DNA from: Spirochaetia bacterium | GTDB taxonomy: Bacteria > Spirochaetota > Spirochaetia > CADAEX01 | Direction of reading: 5' to 3' | Assembly: GCA_017446885.1 (NCBI GenBank) | Contig: JAFSOR010000028.1 | Location: forward strand, 1-64,000 | Length of the DNA stretch: 64,000 nt | Part shown: piece after piece, positions 725 through 60,116 of the stretch | Layout: the number at the start of each line of letters is the position of its first letter | Position numbering within the stretch: position 1 is the stretch's first letter | The notes under the pieces: generated by a model | The model's database searches: none | What the model was told of the DNA's origin: nothing | Seen by the model: the letters and a program-made list of their open reading frames with translations, nothing else | Program-made: the position numbers and the translations under genes

Positions 725-3694
725 ATGATGAAAAAGTTAGCACCTTTGTTTGTTATTGTTTCTGTTGTTTGTATATTACTCTTCTCCTGCGGCGGTGGCG
801 GTGGTGGAGTGGACGAAGCCATTGATGAGACATTTACGGTATCCTATGATGCCAATGGTGCCGAGTCTGGAGCAGTTCCTGCTGCACAAAAGGGTAGCGA
901 GAAATCTCCAATTATTATATCAGACAACACTGGTAATCTTCATAAAAACGGATATGTTTTTTGCGGTTGGCGTTCTCCTAGCCTTGATTTATTTAATCCT
1001 GGTACTTCTTATAATGGCAAAAATAATGCTAATTATAGTAATGACAAGAAAAAACTAACACTCTATGCAGCATGGGAACCATTATTCAACTATAATGTTA
1101 TTAATCCTGGAAATCCAGCACCATCTTTAAATGGTATGCAGAAATCGCCATCAATATCATATGCAGAAATTACTGGTCTTACCGTGCGTGGACTGGCACT
1201 TTCTAATATTGAGATTCCTTGGTCGATGGATGGGTATCAGATTTCATCAATACATTCACAAGCTTTCTATAATAATGCAAATATTCAAAGTATCTCTATC
1301 CCGGAAAGCGTCACCAGTATTGGATTTTTAGCTTTTTATGGATGCAGTTCAATAGCTAGTATAACTATTCCATCCAGTGTTACAAATATAGGCCATGAAG
1401 CTTTTTCCCATTGTTCAAATCTCTCAAATCTTATTCTTTTAAGTTCTACACCACCAGTAATGGGAGAGTATGCATTGGCAGAGTGTCCGGTTACAGTAAG
1501 TGTTCCTGCTGCTGGTGTCGATGAGTACAAAGCATCAAAAGGCTGGAACACTTATTCAGCAAGCATTAATGGATATAGTAATGAAACATATACTGTAACC
1601 TTTGATGGACAGGGGGCAACAACAGCCGCTAATCCTGCAAGCATCGCAGTAGTACCGCCCAATGTGACCGTAGGATCATTGCCATCTAATCCCGATAAAA
1701 CGGGCTATATCTTCGGAGGCTGGTACAAAAGAACAGGCGGAACAGGAGGGGAGTTTACTGCAAGCACTGTAGTTTCATCAAATATGACAGTATATGCAAA
1801 TTGGGAAGAATACAATTATACAGTTGAATTTGATGATCAGGGTGCGACTACTCCTGTGAGTCCTACCAGCAAGACAGTAGCATCGCCAAATACAACAGTT
1901 GATTCTCTGCCGACAGAACCTTCCAATACAGGTTATTATTTCGGTGGTTGGAACACTAAGTCAGATGGAACAGGTACGGCATTCACTGCTTCTACTACAG
2001 TTACTGATAATATCACTGTTTATGCAATATGGATGAATAATCCTACACGTATAGTTACTTTTGATAGCCAGGGAGCGACGACAGAAGCTAATCCAACAAT
2101 TAAACAAGTTGTTTCCCCAGCTGTTACTATAGATTCATTGCCTACCGCTCCTAAAAAGACAGGTTACGGTTTCGGAGGTTGGTTCAGAGAACCAGAGGGG
2201 GCTGGTGGAGAATTTACAACCGATACTGTAGTTACAGACAATATTAGAGTTTATGCAAAGTGGACAGCAAATGTTTACCAGATAACATATAAGGACAAAG
2301 GTGGTTCTGCATTCAGTGGAATCCATGGAAATAATCATCCGACAACACATACATATGGAAATGATACGGCATTGGTAACTCCTTCAAAAGAAGGTTATAC
2401 ATTTGGTGGATGGTTTTCAGATAGTAATTGTGAAGGTTCAGCGCTCACAAAATTAAATGCAACTTTATATGCAGACAATATAATTTTATATGCAAAATGG
2501 ACAGCAAATGTTTACCCAATAACATATAAGGACAAAGGTGATTCTGCATTCAGTGGAATCCATGGAAATAATCATCCGACAACACATACATATGGAACTG
2601 ATACTGTATTGGTAACTCCTTCAAAAGAAAGATATAAGTTCGATGGTTGGTATACAGATAGTGAATGTACGGGTTCTGTAGTAAATAAAATTGGAGCAAC
2701 TTCAATTACTTCTGGATTAATTTTGTATGCAAAATGGACTCCAGTTTATGCGGTGATTGTGAACAGTTCGTCTGATGGAACTGTGACAGCAAGCTCAACA
2801 AATAATATAATTGCAGGAACAATTATTAGTCTTTCAGTATCACCAAATGACTTATGTGTATTAAACTCCTTTACTGTAAAAGATGAGAGTAGTAATACCA
2901 TAAATTTGAACACTATTATTGAAGGAACCAATTATTCTTTTGTAATGCCAACGGCTAATGTAAATGTGAGTGCAACATTTTTAGTATATTCCAGCATAAA
3001 AGAAGGAGTTGTAAGAACAGGTACTCCAACTATTGGTGATATTGTTCTTCAATCAGGAAATACTGTATCAACGACAAATTATAAAAATAAAACAAATGAT
3101 TATAATACTAAAGATGGAGCACCCGTAGGAATAGTTGCATATGAGGGTAATGAGACTGCAGGAGGTTCAACAGCTCTAGGCGGGGGAGATGGATTATGGT
3201 ATATGGTTCAGATAGATTATAGCAGTGTAAATAAACCATGGCATACTCTTAATGGGAATGGCTCTCATGGACTTGTTCCTCAACTCGTATGTCAGGATGG
3301 TTATTCTACGGGTAGTTATTCTGGATACTATAACACCTATGAAGTCATTGGAGATAATGAACGCTATCCTGCATTTCAGGTTGCATATAATTATCATCCA
3401 GGAAATACTTCAGAAGGAGAAATATATTATACTGGATGGTTCTTGCCAGCAATAAATGAACTATCAAGACTCTATTCCAGTATAACAGATATTAATAATA
3501 GTATTAGTATGCTAAAAAAAGCAGGGATATCTAAAGCTTCATCTTTACCAACAATTGGGTTTATTTGGTCATCATCTCAAGCTGGTGGTGAAGGTGATTT
3601 TGCAAGGGGAATTAATAGTGAAACTGGAAATAAAAAAAATCAAGTCAAAAATCTTGCTTACCCTGTAATTATAGTTCGAGCTTTAGATGATTAA
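725..3694 (+). CDS. Large surface lipoprotein with BspA-type leucine-rich repeats and InlB B-repeats
   Basis: A 989-aa predicted lipoprotein. The signal peptide ends at a relaxed lipobox (LFSC, Cys22) followed by a Gly run. Then come an InlB-like repeat (about 38-117), a BspA-type LRR block (about 155-260, with IPESVTSIG and IPSSVTNIG units) and roughly five InlB B/Listeria-Bacteroides repeats (about 287-675), each ending in a GGW...YAxW pattern. A divergent InlB-type module (about 680-755) precedes a C-terminal region resembling DUF1566-type surface domains. Such proteins are exposed adhesins or surface repeats; a ligand cannot be inferred. GAGGAG (714-719) precedes the ATG. The gene is AT-rich compared with the core genes and contains a recent internal duplication (2252-2632). 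Confidence 0.85.
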   Translation: MMKKLAPLFVIVSVVCILLFSCGGGGGGVDEAIDETFTVSYDANGAESGAVPAAQKGSEKSPIIISDNTGNLHKNGYVFCGWRSPSLDLFNPGTSYNGKNNANYSNDKKKLTLYAAWEPLFNYNVINPGNPAPSLNGMQKSPSISYAEITGLTVRGLALSNIEIPWSMDGYQISSIHSQAFYNNANIQSISIPESVTSIGFLAFYGCSSIASITIPSSVTNIGHEAFSHCSNLSNLILLSSTPPVMGEYALAECPVTVSVPAAGVDEYKASKGWNTYSASINGYSNETYTVTFDGQGATTAANPASIAVVPPNVTVGSLPSNPDKTGYIFGGWYKRTGGTGGEFTASTVVSSNMTVYANWEEYNYTVEFDDQGATTPVSPTSKTVASPNTTVDSLPTEPSNTGYYFGGWNTKSDGTGTAFTASTTVTDNITVYAIWMNNPTRIVTFDSQGATTEANPTIKQVVSPAVTIDSLPTAPKKTGYGFGGWFREPEGAGGEFTTDTVVTDNIRVYAKWTANVYQITYKDKGGSAFSGIHGNNHPTTHTYGNDTALVTPSKEGYTFGGWFSDSNCEGSALTKLNATLYADNIILYAKWTANVYPITYKDKGDSAFSGIHGNNHPTTHTYGTDTVLVTPSKERYKFDGWYTDSECTGSVVNKIGATSITSGLILYAKWTPVYAVIVNSSSDGTVTASSTNNIIAGTIISLSVSPNDLCVLNSFTVKDESSNTINLNTIIEGTNYSFVMPTANVNVSATFLVYSSIKEGVVRTGTPTIGDIVLQSGNTVSTTNYKNKTNDYNTKDGAPVGIVAYEGNETAGGSTALGGGDGLWYMVQIDYSSVNKPWHTLNGNGSHGLVPQLVCQDGYSTGSYSGYYNTYEVIGDNERYPAFQVAYNYHPGNTSEGEIYYTGWFLPAINELSRLYSSITDINNSISMLKKAGISKASSLPTIGFIWSSSQAGGEGDFARGINSETGNKKNQVKNLAYPVIIVRALDD
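2252..2632 (+). repeat. Near-identical 237-bp tandem unit inside the lipoprotein gene
   Basis: The stretch beginning at 2252 recurs 237 bp (79 codons) later at 2489. About 140 bp at the start of each copy are almost identical at DNA level, including a block of more than 60 bp that differs at only one or two positions. This marks a recent in-frame duplication of one InlB repeat. Confidence 0.85.
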
Positions 3695-3724: not shown

Positions 3725-4930
3725 ATGAACTTATTAGATGCTGTAAAAAATGGTATAAAAGAAACAATAAAAGAAAAAAGTCAACAAAAAAATATAATAG
3801 AAGCACTTGAAAACGATAATAAAAAAACTCCTGAAAAAATTATTAAACAACTGGATAATTATTCTGCTGTTTTTATTAAAGAAAGATTTTCTATTATAGA
3901 TAAAGGTGATTGTTTTAAATTTAGAGATTTAGCTGATGATTATTTTCCTAAAAGTTTTCATTCTTTAGTCTTATATGTTTTAGGTATCAAACTAAAGGAA
4001 ATATTTGAATTGTTTTTTGTCAATGCCAAGGACCTATCTTGTGTTTGCATAGATATGTCTGATTCTTTTGAATATGTATGGCGATTAACCAGTTTTTATC
4101 ATGATGTAATGACTAAATATGAAGATACAAAGACAGCAAATATTATACATTGTTACATGCCATGTATTTCTTCTGAATTGTTAACGGTGGAAAATTTCAT
4201 AAACACCTGTAAAAAAATAAAATTTGCAGGTATTAAATATACTATTTATGATAAAAAAACAGAGTTAAATAAAATTAATAATACTTTAAATACTATTAGC
4301 CCAACTTATTCAAAAGATGTTGTTAATAGATATTTTAGGAAACGTTTAAGTGTTTCAAATATCGATCATGGAATTATTTCTGGATATGTGTTTTATAATC
4401 AATTAATTTGTAACTATTTAAAACAACTGAGAGACTATCAAACATCTAATTTACGACATAAGGTAAATGAAGTATTTGAGCATAAAGGACTGTTCTATCG
4501 GCCAGAGCATTTGTGTCTGTTTAAGTATATTGCAGATGCAATAATAGTTCATAATATTTGGCATTATGACAATAGTTCAGAGCAAGCTTATAAGCTTTGG
4601 AATCTTGAGAAGTTATCAGTTAAAAATAGACTTTCACTTAAGAATAATACATTAGCTTTTATACTTGGATTGCTGGATACTATTGAACCAACAAAATATT
4701 TTAAATCTTTTAAGCCGTTTGACGTTTTATCTTCAATTAAGATAGAGAGTTCTAGAGTTGATAATCAGCCAATTACTATTATTCTCAAGCAGTTTAAAAC
4801 TAAGAATAAGAACAATATTGATTTTAATGATTGGTATACTAATAAGCTTAAGAGTATGGAGTGCTGGCTTGATTTGACTGTTGAGTATAATCAAGACACA
4901 AAAGAAATAAAAATAACTATACCAAGTTAA
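3725..4930 (+). CDS. Unrecognised 401-aa protein with a possible HD-like C-terminal region
   Basis: AT-rich, with no signal peptide or membrane segment. The ATG at 3725 is chosen because AGGA lies 9 nt upstream; ATG 3719 would be only 3 nt away. The N-terminus is Lys/Glu-rich and helical. Around residues 270-330 the run CLFKYIADAIIVHNIW and then LAFILGLLDTIEP recalls the HNIW...PLAFLLRLxDxLQ pattern of some diverged HD-domain proteins. This is a weak resemblance and the full set of HD metal ligands is not evident. It follows the lipoprotein gene after 30 nt and may be co-transcribed with it. Function unknown. Confidence 0.6.
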   Translation: MNLLDAVKNGIKETIKEKSQQKNIIEALENDNKKTPEKIIKQLDNYSAVFIKERFSIIDKGDCFKFRDLADDYFPKSFHSLVLYVLGIKLKEIFELFFVNAKDLSCVCIDMSDSFEYVWRLTSFYHDVMTKYEDTKTANIIHCYMPCISSELLTVENFINTCKKIKFAGIKYTIYDKKTELNKINNTLNTISPTYSKDVVNRYFRKRLSVSNIDHGIISGYVFYNQLICNYLKQLRDYQTSNLRHKVNEVFEHKGLFYRPEHLCLFKYIADAIIVHNIWHYDNSSEQAYKLWNLEKLSVKNRLSLKNNTLAFILGLLDTIEPTKYFKSFKPFDVLSSIKIESSRVDNQPITIILKQFKTKNKNNIDFNDWYTNKLKSMECWLDLTVEYNQDTKEIKITIPS

Positions 4931-54669: not shown

Positions 54670-55002
54670 ATGCAGGCAAAAGATTTTTCCAGGACAAAAA
54701 TATTCAGGCTGATCAACAGGTGCTCTATTTTCATGGCTGTATTTACCGCAGCCGTATTCTTTTTCTATGTCCTGGGTTCGTATCAGGCATTTCTGCCCGA
54801 CACCATGATGCTGCTTCTGCGTTGCACTGTCTGGTCATCGTTGGCACTTATCGGCTGTTCGGTAATTGTCATTGCCCTTCTTTTGACCTTTATAAACAGT
54901 CGGCGTATTTTTGCTGTAAAAAAGCTTTCAGCTCAGATTTTTTTTATAGCTATGGCCTTTGCCTTTCTCTATGTCTCAATGTTCATCATCGCCTGTGTCT
55001 GA
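54670..55002 (+). CDS. Small membrane protein, 3 TM segments
   Basis: A 110-aa hydrophobic protein with a short basic N-terminus and three clear TM stretches (about 18-38, 48-70 and 86-108). The family is not recognised; the size and TM layout are like many DUF2975-type regulators, but no motif proves it. No ribosome-binding site: TGATATAAT (an extended -10) ends 5 nt before the ATG. Its end overlaps the convergent znuB gene by 17 nt. Confidence 0.6.
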   Translation: MQAKDFSRTKIFRLINRCSIFMAVFTAAVFFFYVLGSYQAFLPDTMMLLLRCTVWSSLALIGCSVIVIALLLTFINSRRIFAVKKLSAQIFFIAMAFAFLYVSMFIIACV

Positions 55003-55837
55003 CTATTGCCTTTGAGCAGAGTGCCAGAGCCAGGTAGACAATTCCAGAAAGTATTATCGTCACAGCCCCGGTGGGCAGGTCGAATGTGTAGCTTAGGAAG
55101 AGCCCCGATGAGGAGAATATGGCACACAATATTGCCCCCAGTGTCATTATATGAGACAGCCTTCTGACCACAAGGGATGCGGCAGCGGCAGGTATGGTAA
55201 GGAATGCTATGGACATGACCACTCCCACCAGCGATACCATAAGCACCACAGTTATTGCGATTAGAATGTTAAGCAGCACATTCAGGAACACAGTGTTTAT
55301 GCCCCGTACTATGGCAAAGGTCTCGTCAAATGCTGTTGCCTTCAGCACATGGTAGTACCGGATGACGATGAATATTACAACCAGATCCAGCAGCATTATT
55401 GTGATAAGGTCGCTGTGCGATATAAGGAGGATGTTTCCGAACAGGTAGCTCATAGGATCGGCGTATCCAGAAGAAAGGGCTATGCATACAATGCCCAATG
55501 CCATGCCCACTGCCCATACTGCACCGATTACGCTGTCGCTCCGCTCCTGGCTGTACAGTTCCACCAGCGATATGACAACTGCAGCCAGCACCGAGGCCAC
55601 CAGTGCTCCAATGATTGGCGAGAAGGCAAGTCCCAGTTTTTCGTTAAGCAGAATTACGGCGCCAATTCCTCCCAGGGCAACATGGCTTACTGCACCTACA
55701 ATATACGACATGCGTTTGATGACTACATAGGAGCCTATCATTCCGAATGCTATGCTGGAAAGAAGCCCAGCAAAAAGTGCATACCGGATGAAAGGAACCG
55801 CAGGGTCTGTGATTGCGGCCCAGAATTCACTCAGCAT
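54986..55837 (-). CDS. znuB: Zinc ABC transporter permease
   Basis: A 283-aa inner-membrane permease of the ABC-3 family with about 8 TM segments. It has the GMIGSYVVIKRMSYIVGAVSHVALGG opening (residues 30-55) and the GVVMSIAFLTIPAAAASLV region near 205, both typical. It forms the channel for metal received from ZnuA and driven by ZnuC. It is the last gene of the regulator-znuA-znuC-znuB operon and overlaps znuC by 11 nt. Confidence 0.92.
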   Translation of the reverse strand: MLSEFWAAITDPAVPFIRYALFAGLLSSIAFGMIGSYVVIKRMSYIVGAVSHVALGGIGAVILLNEKLGLAFSPIIGALVASVLAAVVISLVELYSQERSDSVIGAVWAVGMALGIVCIALSSGYADPMSYLFGNILLISHSDLITIMLLDLVVIFIVIRYYHVLKATAFDETFAIVRGINTVFLNVLLNILIAITVVLMVSLVGVVMSIAFLTIPAAAASLVVRRLSHIMTLGAILCAIFSSSGLFLSYTFDLPTGAVTIILSGIVYLALALCSKAIVRHRR

Positions 55838-56585
55838 GGTGGTCCTCCTTCCGGTGTCCGCGGTGGTTGTACAGGTCTATGTCGTGGCGTATCATGTTCA
55901 AAGTCTCGGCCCCCACAGTTACAAGCTCGGTAGGGTGTTCGTGGACAAATGTGTTAACGCACAGCACCCGGGTCTGGAATGCTGTGGTGAATGCGGTGTC
56001 ATGGGTTACCAGAAGAATTGTCAGCTCTTTGTTCAGCTTCTTCATAAGTGCCGAAAGGTAATCCTCGGTGGTCACGTCTATGTTGGTGGTAGGCTCGTCC
56101 AGAAGCAGTATCTCGGGGCCGCTGGCCAATGCCCTGGCTATGAGCACCCGCTGCCGCTGACCGCCGGACAGGGCAGCAAAGGTGTTGTTCCGTACATCGG
56201 CAAGGCCTATGTCGCTTAAAATCTGTTCAGCAATCTCCCTGTCTTCTGCTGTGTATCGGAAAAGACCATCTTTCATCCTGCCCGAAAGGACAGTCTCGAA
56301 CACAGATATAGGAAACCGCGGGTCGAAAAGGGAATACTGGGGAACATAGCCCATCACCGGCTTTTTAAGCTTTTTAGGCGGCACCCCGTCAATCAGTATG
56401 GTGCCTGAATCTGGTTTAAGAATACCCAGGAGCAGCTTGAGCAGTGTCGATTTACCGCCGCCGTTAGGCCCTATGATTGTCACAATATCTTTATCGTAAA
56501 TCTCAAAGGAGACATTCTTTAGAACATCGCGGCTGTCGTAGCGGAAAGATAGATCCTTGACTTGGATTTTAATTTCTTTCATCAA
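55827..56585 (-). CDS. znuC: Zinc ABC transporter ATP-binding protein
   Basis: A 252-aa ABC ATPase. Walker A is GPNGGGKSTLLKLLL, the signature is LSGGQRQRVLIARAL, Walker B is ILLLDEPTTNID, and a switch His lies in LLVTHD. It powers import through ZnuB. It directly follows znuA with no gap. The C-terminus is short, without an extra regulatory domain. Confidence 0.94.
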   Translation of the reverse strand: MMKEIKIQVKDLSFRYDSRDVLKNVSFEIYDKDIVTIIGPNGGGKSTLLKLLLGILKPDSGTILIDGVPPKKLKKPVMGYVPQYSLFDPRFPISVFETVLSGRMKDGLFRYTAEDREIAEQILSDIGLADVRNNTFAALSGGQRQRVLIARALASGPEILLLDEPTTNIDVTTEDYLSALMKKLNKELTILLVTHDTAFTTAFQTRVLCVNTFVHEHPTELVTVGAETLNMIRHDIDLYNHRGHRKEDHHAE

Positions 56586-57479
56586 TCATTCCTCAAATGA
56601 TTTAACCAGAAGCTCTGCCGTATTCCTGGTGTTTTCCATCCAGTTGTATTCCAGCACCGACATAGTCACAGCCTTGCCACCTATAGCCTGGGCCACACGC
56701 TTTGCACCGGCTGCCGGGAATTCGGGCTGAATAAAAATAGTCTTGACCCGGTCTGCCTTTGCCTGGTTTACCAGTTCCCTGAGCTTGGCAGGAGTAGGCT
56801 CTTTCTCGCCGGTCTCGATAGACTTCTGCACTAGGCCGAACCTTTCTGCAAAATAAGTATATGCCGAGTGGTAGACATAGAATATCCTTCCCTTATAGGG
56901 GGCAAACTTTTGGTCAAGCTCTGATTTAAGAGCATCCAGATTCTTCGCAAAGTTCTCAAGATTGGCAGCATAGTTTGCAGCATGGGCTGGATCTATGCTG
57001 GAAAAAGTGTCGGCCATATTCTTGGCCACTATTTTAATAAGTACTGGGTCGGTCCAGATATGGGGGTCTGTCTCGCCGTGATGGTGATGATGGTGCTCAT
57101 GTTCGTGTTCATGTTCATCTTCTTCTTCATCGTGCTCTGGGTTCTTGAGCTTGGGCACATCCTTGTCACAGGCTGCGACAACCAGTTTCTTTTTCCCGGT
57201 CTTAAGCTTGTCCAGGAAAATGTTCTCGAAAGGAATTCCTATAGTAAAGTAGGCATCGGCATTTCCAAGCTGAACTATCTGCTTTGGGGATGGGTCGAAG
57301 CTCTCAGGGCTTGCACCGGATGGCACCAGCACCGACACATCCACCAGGTCGCCTCCAACCTGTTCAGCAAAATATTTCTGCGGCATTATACTTACAAAAA
57401 CGTTCAGTTTCTGTGGATTCTCGGTGTATGCAAATTGTATGCATATTGCAGCAAATAAAAAAATCAATGTTTTCCGCAT
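56586..57479 (-). CDS. znuA: Zinc-binding periplasmic protein with His-rich loop
   Basis: A 297-aa cluster-9 solute-binding protein with a signal peptide (about 1-18). An acidic/His-rich loop at about 116-134 (alternating His/Glu, then six His) is the hallmark of zinc rather than manganese binding proteins. Core ligand regions include GIPFENIF and DPHIWTDP (His140). The backbone helix KLRELVNQAKADRVKTIF and the C-terminal metal-site segment follow. It captures Zn2+ for ZnuBC. Its ATG lies 16 nt inside the end of the upstream regulator gene, so they are translationally coupled. Confidence 0.94.
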   Translation of the reverse strand: MRKTLIFLFAAICIQFAYTENPQKLNVFVSIMPQKYFAEQVGGDLVDVSVLVPSGASPESFDPSPKQIVQLGNADAYFTIGIPFENIFLDKLKTGKKKLVVAACDKDVPKLKNPEHDEEEDEHEHEHEHHHHHHGETDPHIWTDPVLIKIVAKNMADTFSSIDPAHAANYAANLENFAKNLDALKSELDQKFAPYKGRIFYVYHSAYTYFAERFGLVQKSIETGEKEPTPAKLRELVNQAKADRVKTIFIQPEFPAAGAKRVAQAIGGKAVTMSVLEYNWMENTRNTAELLVKSFEE

Positions 57480-57742
57480 CTGCAGTGCTCCTTATTGTTG
57501 CATTTTATATAAAGTTCATGGCAGTCCTTGCACTCCTCAAGGGAATGGGTCTTTATGAACTTGTCCCAGTGGGCCCGTTGAGATACCGATATGGTGCCTG
57601 TTCCCTGGCATAGTGGGCATGTGTTCTGCATATATTCAAGCACAGCATTGCGTATGAAGTCAGATTTGTTGGGCATATGCTTAAGTACAGCCGCCAGCTC
57701 TTCGTCGGCTTTAAAAGATATAACTTCTGTTTTTTCAGTCAT
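57464..57742 (-). CDS. Ribbon-helix-helix protein with Cys/His-rich tail, probable metal-responsive regulator of znuACB
   Basis: A 92-aa protein. Residues 5-38 form a ribbon-helix-helix DNA-binding fold (EVISFKADEELAAVL, then SDFIRNAVLEYM). Residues 40-92 are a compact metal-site candidate: CPLCQGTG (Cys42, Cys45), CKDCH (Cys71, Cys74, His75) and a CNNKEHCRCGKH tail (Cys81, 87, 89, His86, 92). It is the first gene of the znu operon and overlaps znuA by 16 nt. An operator-like repeat (57753-57775) overlaps its own promoter. It looks like a zinc sensor, distinct from Zur (Fur family), AdcR and NikR; I know of no named family with this build. Confidence 0.75.
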   Translation of the reverse strand: MTEKTEVISFKADEELAAVLKHMPNKSDFIRNAVLEYMQNTCPLCQGTGTISVSQRAHWDKFIKTHSLEECKDCHELYIKCNNKEHCRCGKH

Positions 57743-57752
57743 GAAAATTCCT

Positions 57753-57775
57753 CTGGTAATACTTTGTAATACCAG
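57753..57775. promoter_or_regulatory. Operator-like repeat over the znu operon promoter
   Basis: GTAATAC-TTT-GTAATAC is a direct 7-mer repeat with a 10-bp period. The wider sequence (CTGG ... CCAG ends) also forms a 9-of-10 inverted repeat. On the minus strand it overlaps the -10 region (TACAAA); TTGACA is the -35 (complement of 57787-57792, 18-bp spacing). Repressor binding here would block the operon. Confidence 0.65.
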
Positions 57776-57799
57776 GGAAGCCCTTATGTCAATAGGGTT

Positions 57800-59065
57800 T
57801 TAAAAGAAATCCATATCTTCCGGAGGAGTGGGAACCTTAAGCACTTTTCCTATAGACAGGACAGAATCCAGCTCAAGATGATTGAAGTAGGCTATATGCT
57901 TGACATCGGTATGGAACAGCTTGGCGATAGACCACATGGTATCTCCTTTCTGCACCTTGTATTCTCCTGCAAAGCCTTCGGCTGAAATATCCGGTATCCA
58001 GTTGGATAAATCAAAAGTTCCCTCATATGGTTTTATATCTGGATCACTTACCGGTATGACCAGCTTTGAACCGATTTTCAAGTTGTTTGGATTCACATTA
58101 TTGAAACTCTGGATCATGGATACTGATATACCGTAGTGATGGCTCAGGTGAGACAGGGTGTCCCCTGCTTTTACAGTATACAGATGAAAGTCTGTGAGCT
58201 TGGTCTTTTTATTGGCTGTCACACTTTTGATTTTTTCAGCTTTATCTGCCGGAGCCTTAAGCAGATAGCCAGTCTTGGCAGGGGGTGTGACATAGAATTT
58301 AAGTTCGGAGTTTCCCATGTCCAGAATGTTCCTCGGAATACCGGTCTCCTTTGCAAGAAGCCGTATATCCACCGGCTGGGGCAGTTCAATCCTGGTCCAC
58401 TGGAAGGGTTTGGACTGCTTATCTTTTATACCATATTTACCTCTCTCCTTAAGCACATCTGAAATGGCCAGGAGTTTAGGGATATAATGGGTGGTCTCTT
58501 TGCTTAAAAGCCCTTTCTGGCAGAGCTTCCAGTAGTCGGATGTTCCCCCTTCCTTGACACAACGCTTCATTTTACCCAAGCCACAGTTGTAGGCGGCTAT
58601 AGCCAGATTCCAGTCTTTCAGCACCGAGTAATTGTACTTGATTTTTTTCATGGCTGCGTCGGTAGCCTTCCAGAAATCCCGCCGTTCATCCACCCATTCA
58701 TCTATCTTCATATTATAGCCGTCTATGCTGTTGGTCATGAACTGCCACAATCCTGTGGCACCTGATCTGGAGACTGCATTGGGCTTGAAGTTTGACTCCA
58801 CGAAAGGGAGGTAGATAACCTCATGAGGAAGCCCATGTTCCTTTACTTTTGCCTCGATGAAAGGGACAAAGTACTCGGCCTGTTCCCAGATTGCTGCAAG
58901 GTGTTTCCGTTCCTGTACCGAAGTGTACTTCCTGAAATAGTTTTCGTACAGTTGGTTGCCACCCTTTGGAAGCAGACTTGATTTTAAGGCATCCTCTTGG
59001 GCAAATATGAGAAAAGGGGCACAAAGTGCCATGACAATGAGAAGTAATAATGATTTTCTATTCAT
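57800..59065 (-). CDS. Membrane-bound lytic transglycosylase (MltD-like) with two LysM domains
   Basis: A 421-aa protein with a signal peptide (about 1-22, FLIFAQ). The GH23 lytic transglycosylase domain has the catalytic Glu in VIYLPFVESNFKP, then GATGLWQFM and AAYNCG. LysM domains lie near 298-345 (YTVKAGDTLSHLSHHYG) and 374-418 (YKVQKGDTMWSIAKLF). It cleaves peptidoglycan strands, and LysM holds it on the sacculus. The ATG at 59065 overlaps the end of the upstream TPR lipoprotein gene by 8 nt, so the two are an operon. Confidence 0.92.
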   Translation of the reverse strand: MNRKSLLLLIVMALCAPFLIFAQEDALKSSLLPKGGNQLYENYFRKYTSVQERKHLAAIWEQAEYFVPFIEAKVKEHGLPHEVIYLPFVESNFKPNAVSRSGATGLWQFMTNSIDGYNMKIDEWVDERRDFWKATDAAMKKIKYNYSVLKDWNLAIAAYNCGLGKMKRCVKEGGTSDYWKLCQKGLLSKETTHYIPKLLAISDVLKERGKYGIKDKQSKPFQWTRIELPQPVDIRLLAKETGIPRNILDMGNSELKFYVTPPAKTGYLLKAPADKAEKIKSVTANKKTKLTDFHLYTVKAGDTLSHLSHHYGISVSMIQSFNNVNPNNLKIGSKLVIPVSDPDIKPYEGTFDLSNWIPDISAEGFAGEYKVQKGDTMWSIAKLFHTDVKHIAYFNHLELDSVLSIGKVLKVPTPPEDMDFF

Positions 59066-60116
59066 TTGACCGGCTGAAAACTCTGTCTCCCAGATAGATT
59101 CCTGCCCATTCCCAGTTGCCATGGATCTCGGGGTTTGCAGGGAAATTTATTTTTCTGAAATAGAAATACCAGGTGTTCATTCTGAAATCCCAGCCCGATG
59201 TCTTGAGATATGCCTCCTGGGCATTGGAAATTTTGTCCAGCTCCCGGTTCACTCTGGTGCTGCTGTTTATGAAACTGCCTATGTTGGTTGTAGCAAGGGC
59301 TTCCTGGCTTGCCTCCTGTTCTTCCCACGATGACATAAAGAATTTTACTTTGGAGGTATACTTGTTTATTTCCGAGGATTTTCTTGTCCTAAGGGCTGCC
59401 GACACCTTGCTTATAAGCTCATCCAGGCTTGCATAGCTCCAGGTGACACGGGTTGTGTAGTAGGCCTCGAAGTCGCTGGCATATTCCCGGGCCGATGAAT
59501 TGCCTGGCACAGTTGCCTCAGGGTAGCTTAGGAACTTTTTATACGATTGTGCAGCCAAGTCCCACTGGCCTGCCTCTCCATAGCAGTCGCCCAGATAGAA
59601 ATAAATTTCTCCGGGATTTACCTTGTCCGAGAACCGGCTTATCAATTCCTTGTAGCACTCTATCTTCTCTTCCAGATCCTGGCTGCTGCCAAGAATCTCT
59701 TTAAGGCATAGGAAGTGGATGGATTGATTCTGGTATATGACATCGGTATAGCTGTGAAGAATGCGGCTGAAGTAGTAGTGGGCAAACGGGAAAGCTTCCT
59801 GTCCCTTGTATCTTAGCGCAACAGTATAAAGATAGTAAGCATTGAACGGATCTTCCGGATGGCTTTCTACATAGTCGGTCAGGAATACAGACAAAAGTTC
59901 AGGGTCATCCTTCTTGTCCAGAAACTGATATATCTGCATCATATGAATATAGTTCTTTTCATAGTCGGTGCTTTTCTCAAGCGAGGCAGAGATAGATTCG
60001 AACTCGCTTTTCTGTACCTTATCTAACCCGGAAGTATACATATCCTTGCTGCAGGATGTGGCAATCAGAAGGAAAAGAGAGAGAAAAAGCAATGTCATGC
60101 AGTCAGCTTTTTTCAT
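59058..60116 (-). CDS. TPR-repeat lipoprotein
   Basis: A 352-aa lipoprotein (lipobox IATSC) with helical repeats of TPR type (e.g. EIYFYLGDCYGEAGQWDLA near 190). It is likely a periplasmic scaffold for the lytic transglycosylase encoded directly downstream. The ATG at 60116 is preferred: a promoter (TTGCCA complementary to 60148-60153, TATATT complementary to 60125-60130) ends 8 nt before it, and no ribosome-binding site is present. The longer open frame upstream would lie outside the transcript. Confidence 0.75.
   Translation of the reverse strand: MKKADCMTLLFLSLFLLIATSCSKDMYTSGLDKVQKSEFESISASLEKSTDYEKNYIHMMQIYQFLDKKDDPELLSVFLTDYVESHPEDPFNAYYLYTVALRYKGQEAFPFAHYYFSRILHSYTDVIYQNQSIHFLCLKEILGSSQDLEEKIECYKELISRFSDKVNPGEIYFYLGDCYGEAGQWDLAAQSYKKFLSYPEATVPGNSSAREYASDFEAYYTTRVTWSYASLDELISKVSAALRTRKSSEINKYTSKVKFFMSSWEEQEASQEALATTNIGSFINSSTRVNRELDKISNAQEAYLKTSGWDFRMNTWYFYFRKINFPANPEIHGNWEWAGIYLGDRVFSRSNE

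Follow-up and report, generated by a model that had tools for sequence, protein, structure and literature searches.

Which protein controls zinc uptake in a spirochaete whose znu operon begins with a gene for a protein of 92 amino acids? The question is raised by a locus in the window, that is, the whole stretch of 64,000 nucleotides of Spirochaetia DNA that was analysed. The reviewed bacterial regulators of zinc uptake are Zur of the Fur family and AdcR of the MarR family, the latter being a zinc-uptake repressor in some Firmicutes (PMC6103462). The features on which the analysis is based are the following.

57464..57742, minus strand: putative ribbon-helix-helix (RHH) zinc regulator gene, 92 aa, first in the znu operon (reading frame with ATG start; homologues with the same layout)
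57626..57733, minus strand: RHH DNA-binding part, residues about 4-39 (RHH_1 and aCcr1 RHH models, predicted helices, invariant residues)
57500..57619, minus strand: C-terminal Cys/His domain, CPxC-x-G-x-G...H58...H66...C71-x2-C74...C81, proposed to be zinc-sensing (conservation; weak DnaJ-type and anti-TRAP resemblance)
57756..57772: predicted operator, a pair of 7-bp GTAWTAC palindromes spaced by 10 bp (conservation before homologues from many phyla)
57787..57792, minus strand: TTGACA, candidate -35 element, 14 bp before the operator (sequence)
56586..57479, minus strand: znuA, zinc-binding protein with a His-rich loop (PF01297, E 3e-68)
55827..56585, minus strand: znuC, ABC ATPase (PF00005; best NCBIfam match AztA, a zinc ABC ATPase, below cutoff)
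54986..55837, minus strand: znuB, ABC-3 permease (PF00950)
57800-59122, same strand as the regulator: mltD-like gene with SLT and LysM domains

The preliminary description had placed the 92-aa frame at the head of a znuA-znuC-znuB operon with a 16-nt overlap with znuA; the frame and the overlap were found exactly so, and Pfam confirmed ZnuA, the ABC ATPase and the ABC-3 permease. On the other side the mltD-like gene ends 57 nt before the regulator gene, and both promoter and operator lie inside this gap. The window ZnuA (56586-57479) seemingly lacks the usual first His ligand, ASPESFDPSP standing where E. coli ZnuA has His, and possesses a long loop rich in His, Asp and Glu. Such His-rich loops were considered as a marker of zinc specificity and set aside, being no commoner in RHH-linked ZnuA (42 of 110) than in RHH-negative ZnuA (11 of 25). 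Among named records the close relatives of the window genome are Spirochaetia MAGs from yak forestomach.

The window genome encodes one Fur-family protein, whose gene stands directly before a rubrerythrin-type gene (L223 2428-3410, G000:C14) and which therefore looks PerR-like. With this single Fur-family protein no Zur is evident in the window genome, which leaves the RHH protein as the sole candidate zinc regulator observed in it, the check for AdcR being non-exhaustive. In most genomes Fur-family proteins coexist with the regulator, and some of these genomes may also have Zur. Very probably the 92-aa protein is an autoregulatory zinc-uptake repressor of a family for which no description was found in the open-access literature, and its zinc-loaded form would repress its own znuACB operon.

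The assignment of the N-terminal part to the RHH DNA-binding proteins, already proposed in the preliminary description, was borne out by the family, while the window protein alone scores below the Pfam cutoff for RHH_1. This model was matched at E<=0.1 by 35 of 44 family members (best 5.7e-5) and the aCcr1 RHH model by all 44, which is consistent with membership of the RHH superfamily; in 131 distinct homologues K11, S27, F29, I30 and R31 of this part are invariant. The AlphaFold monomer model (mean pLDDT 83, pTM only 0.53) includes helices at residues 14-21, 26-39 and 53-63 and strands at 66-70 and 77-81. A Foldseek search with this model gave no significant match among solved structures, and its top match, SmtB, was rejected as a structural relative because it lay at chance level. 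The RHH fold is dimeric.

Seven cysteines had been counted in the last 52 residues, and all are present (42, 45, 71, 74, 81, 87 and 89); conservation in the family is confined to the first five, and C87 and C89 are local. The same 131 sequences show no variation at C42, P43, C45, G47, G49, H58, H66, C71 or C81, and 99% of them retain C74, so homologues with conserved Cys42/45/71/74, for which a search had been proposed, do exist, and H58 and H66 are two invariant histidines not listed before. Against the window protein the DnaJ (CXXCXGXG) model gave 15.7 bits with a cutoff of 32.7 and the anti-TRAP model 18.1 bits with a cutoff of 65, and among solved structures the anti-TRAP zinc domain 3lcz comes closest, with a weak profile match (E 7e-4). 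As a guess, C42, C45, C71 and C74 may form a structural site, and H58, H66 and C81 a sensing site.

These ligands bear on the alternative that survives best, unlikely as it is, namely that the protein does control the znu operon, by repression or activation, while its Cys/His residues hold a structural zinc site, and either the signal is another one, for example thiol oxidation, or the zinc-free form acts. Cys4 sites are often structural, and the anti-TRAP and DnaJ zinc domains that are resembled here are structural zinc sites; however, seven near-invariant ligands exceed the need of one such site, and the targets predicted are genes for zinc uptake and for zinc-type COG0523 chaperones. The zinc-sensing repressor is thus preferred, and its predicted operator is considered below.

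The direct repeat GTAATAC-TTT-GTAATAC with a 10-bp period, noticed in the preliminary description, lies at 57756-57772. Each GTAWTAC half is itself a palindrome, and the whole can be read as a pair of neighbouring two-fold sites separated by one helical turn. A check of whether homologues share the repeat had been proposed, and they do: of 88 upstream regions of homologues, 73 contain the 17-bp pattern GTAWTAC-N3-GTAWTAC with at most two mismatches, where dinucleotide shuffles predict 0.24, and 67 contain it with at most one mismatch. The N3 spacing is the only one that stands out, with 73 loci versus 0-10 at other spacings. All 21 members of a Desulfobacterota sample have the operator, and in the window genome (1.75 Mb) no second site with 0 or 1 mismatch accompanies the window operator.

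The repeat had also been said to overlap the regulator's own -10 element. The overlap is plausible, as any -10 element in the window falls inside the operator given TTGACA at 57787-57792 on the minus strand, but no consensus -10 was found there, nor was a sigma-70 consensus promoter found at the window operator site. In the family TTGACA-like hexamers accumulate at -9 and -11 from the operator start (31 hits in 67 sites) and also at -20, as in the window, and from this phasing it follows that the operator covers the spacer and -10 region. Some operators occur in pairs about 26-27 bp apart, at 4373 and 4400 in L156 (G236) and at 1789 and 1815 in L101 (G043), located upstream of a second znuA or of the regulator gene, which suggests four-dimer sites.

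Homologues were found in 16 of 41 near genomes, in 21 of 296 genomes drawn evenly from the window's phylum, and, counting full-length matches only, in 21 of 297 genomes from the Desulfobacterota, the phylum of a Desulfobulbaceae genome. Named records with homologues belong to Spirochaetes, Zixibacteria, Deltaproteobacteria, Planctomycetes, Omnitrophota, Hydrogenedentes, Verrucomicrobia (Puniceicoccales, Opitutales), Nitrospirae, Gemmatimonadales, Glassbacteria and Bacillota, and in total the family spreads over ten or so bacterial phyla with more than 100 loci. With this spread, and with the same operator beside zinc-import genes, the family is very probably a widespread zinc sensor.

Neighbourhood of homologues with znu genes had been proposed as a test, and in a sample of 110 loci, biased to the query's close relatives, the regulator gene immediately precedes znuA in the same orientation in 82, has znuA and other znu genes within 6 kb in 7 and another znu gene in 2, whereas 19 are without znu genes in the stretch examined. 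In the Desulfobacterota sample, an even draw not chosen by closeness to the query, all 21 family members precede znu genes. The opposite outcome, homologues scattered without metal-transport neighbours, was not seen, and the orphans that were examined have the operator at znu genes elsewhere. Four loci without znu have a COG0523 (CobW-type) GTPase adjoining the regulator; a connection of COG0523 proteins with zinc homeostasis is on record, and they are a theme of zinc regulons (PMC2770081). Beside an orphan RHH gene of an Opitutales genome lies a large, TonB-receptor-like reading frame (L022 3143-5806), possibly an outer-membrane zinc receptor, with no Pfam match at the threshold used.

The identity of the metal is touched by a second alternative, according to which manganese or iron, rather than zinc, is imported by the transporter and sensed by the RHH protein. 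The ZnuA and ABC-3 families do include manganese and iron importers, and zinc and manganese NCBIfam models both match below cutoff. Nevertheless, five soft Cys ligands are unsuited to manganese, the best NCBIfam matches are the zinc models AztC, AdcA and AztA, the window ZnuA has its long His/Asp/Glu loop, and the COG0523 neighbours and targets represent the known zinc-regulon theme (PMC2770081), which makes this alternative improbable and leaves zinc as the preferred metal.

Sites distant from the regulator gene were also found. In three genomes (G036, G283 and G101) this gene is far from znu and a one-mismatch site stands directly upstream of znuACB, being in G101 the only such site in the genome. 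In G236, taken as Salinispira pacifica, sites occur at the regulator gene, znuACB, a second znuA (two in tandem) and a second znuCB, so that five of eight sites are at regulator or znu genes, and in G034, taken as Sediminispirochaeta (Spirochaeta) smaragdinae, the regulator, a perfect operator and znuACB stand together. The only perfect site of G331 (Opitutales) is before znuACB; in G333 five of seven sites are by znuACB, a second znuA or COG0523 GTPases, and a sixth is by a periplasmic-binding-protein ABC gene. Four loci (L032, L074, L085 and L090) have the site before znuA instead of before the regulator gene. As a negative control, 28 of 30 znuA loci of RHH-lacking spirochaetes have no site with at most two mismatches.

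Several single sites deserve separate mention. In L171 (G011), one of the exceptions among the RHH-lacking spirochaetes, a one-mismatch operator at 1075 is upstream of znuA in a genome that is 81% complete and in which no RHH protein was found; the regulator may have been lost or may be encoded in the part that is missing. In L213 (G333) the site at 3021 lies between a Fur-family gene, accompanied by a metal-chelate type ABC transporter, and a short reading frame with a G3E GTPase, and the RHH and Fur systems may cross-talk there. One-mismatch sites before genes without an obvious zinc role (L214 of G333 at 3006, L220 of G334 at 3036 and L159 of G236 at 4467) are either chance occurrences or unknown regulon members.

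The last alternative, an RHH antitoxin or plasmid-type CopG protein beside znu genes by chance, has next to no credibility and was rejected, for although RHH proteins are common as antitoxins and copy-number regulators, a toxin partner is absent, linkage and operator are conserved across phyla, and no match was obtained on 72,556 plasmids.

The zinc-uptake repressor would thus be expected to operate in the following way. The N-terminal RHH part would form a dimer, and two dimers would bind side by side to the two GTAWTAC palindromes on one DNA face, covering the promoter; by analogy with MetJ and CopG, adjacent palindromes one helical turn apart are what two neighbouring RHH dimers would need. 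The C-terminal domain would bind zinc through the seven conserved Cys/His ligands, and the zinc-loaded protein on the operator would switch off its own znuACB operon, while under zinc shortage it would release the operator and uptake would rise. Zinc-dependent repression is likely because the operator sits on the promoter, and co-repression is preferred in view of the predicted targets, uptake genes with a promoter-blocking operator, according to the logic of Zur and NikR. Zinc as the metal and as co-repressor, as well as dimer-on-dimer DNA binding, are inferred. In the window genome the protein would be a local switch with one site, while in other genomes several znu operons and, in one of them, COG0523 GTPase genes as well may be under its control in trans, as under that of Zur.

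The family and its domain layout, the invariant ligands, the operator with its overlap on the promoter, the linkage to the operon and the trans sites were all established by computation. Sequence searches of Pfam, NCBIfam and PDB gave only weak RHH and zinc-domain matches and no model above cutoff that would provide a family name, and no description of the family was found in the open-access literature. A "CopG family" mention in Paracoccus was rejected as a prior description, being a single row of an expression table with no stated znu link. Quite probably an undescribed family of RHH proteins with a fused Cys/His zinc-sensing domain replaces Zur in the regulation of zinc uptake in many Spirochaetota, Desulfobacterota, Zixibacteria, Planctomycetota, Verrucomicrobiota and others; it would use a single conserved operator and govern, in some genomes, a zinc regulon of several sites.

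If this is true, the family would be a third protein architecture for bacterial zinc uptake control beside Zur and AdcR (PMC6103462), used in phyla with little-studied zinc control, and a very small metal sensor of about 90 residues, whose sensing domain is joined directly to the second RHH helix. Conservation of the operator makes zinc regulons predictable at once in genomes with the regulator, and the cultured carriers S. smaragdinae and S. pacifica make the family experimentally accessible.

The preliminary description had regarded the known zinc repressors as unrelated and NikR as an RHH metal sensor that uses another sensing domain, and both views hold. Zur is similar in its predicted targets (operators were found here at znu operons and COG0523 genes, as is typical of Zur), in an operator placed on the promoter and in presumed zinc-dependent repression; it differs as a winged-helix Fur-family protein with another operator, whereas the present RHH protein has about 90 aa and no Fur domain, PF01475 being absent in Pfam from the window protein and from the 25 best-represented families of the 44 members. 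AdcR is likewise a zinc-uptake repressor, but its MarR winged helix is unrelated in sequence and fold. In NikR an ACT-like domain is the nickel sensor, and two RHH dimers are linked across a long split operator. NikR shares an RHH DNA-binding part, a C-terminal metal-sensing part and regulation of a metal uptake operon, but here a short Cys/His domain replaces the ACT-like one, only about 50 residues follow the RHH part, no NikR model matched in Pfam or NCBIfam, and the operator is not a widely split dyad but two adjacent 7-bp palindromes at N3 spacing, 10 bp apart. In MetJ, Arc and CopG neighbouring RHH dimers occupy tandem short palindromes like those of the predicted operator; however, these proteins are not metal sensors and are without the Cys/His domain. 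Anti-TRAP (RtpA) and the DnaJ zinc domain have the CPxCxGxG zinc-binding motif, but they are without RHH and are not DNA-binding repressors of metal uptake. Thus, the RHH protein with its Cys/His domain is judged to represent a new metalloregulator family, which would work like Zur or NikR and belongs to neither.
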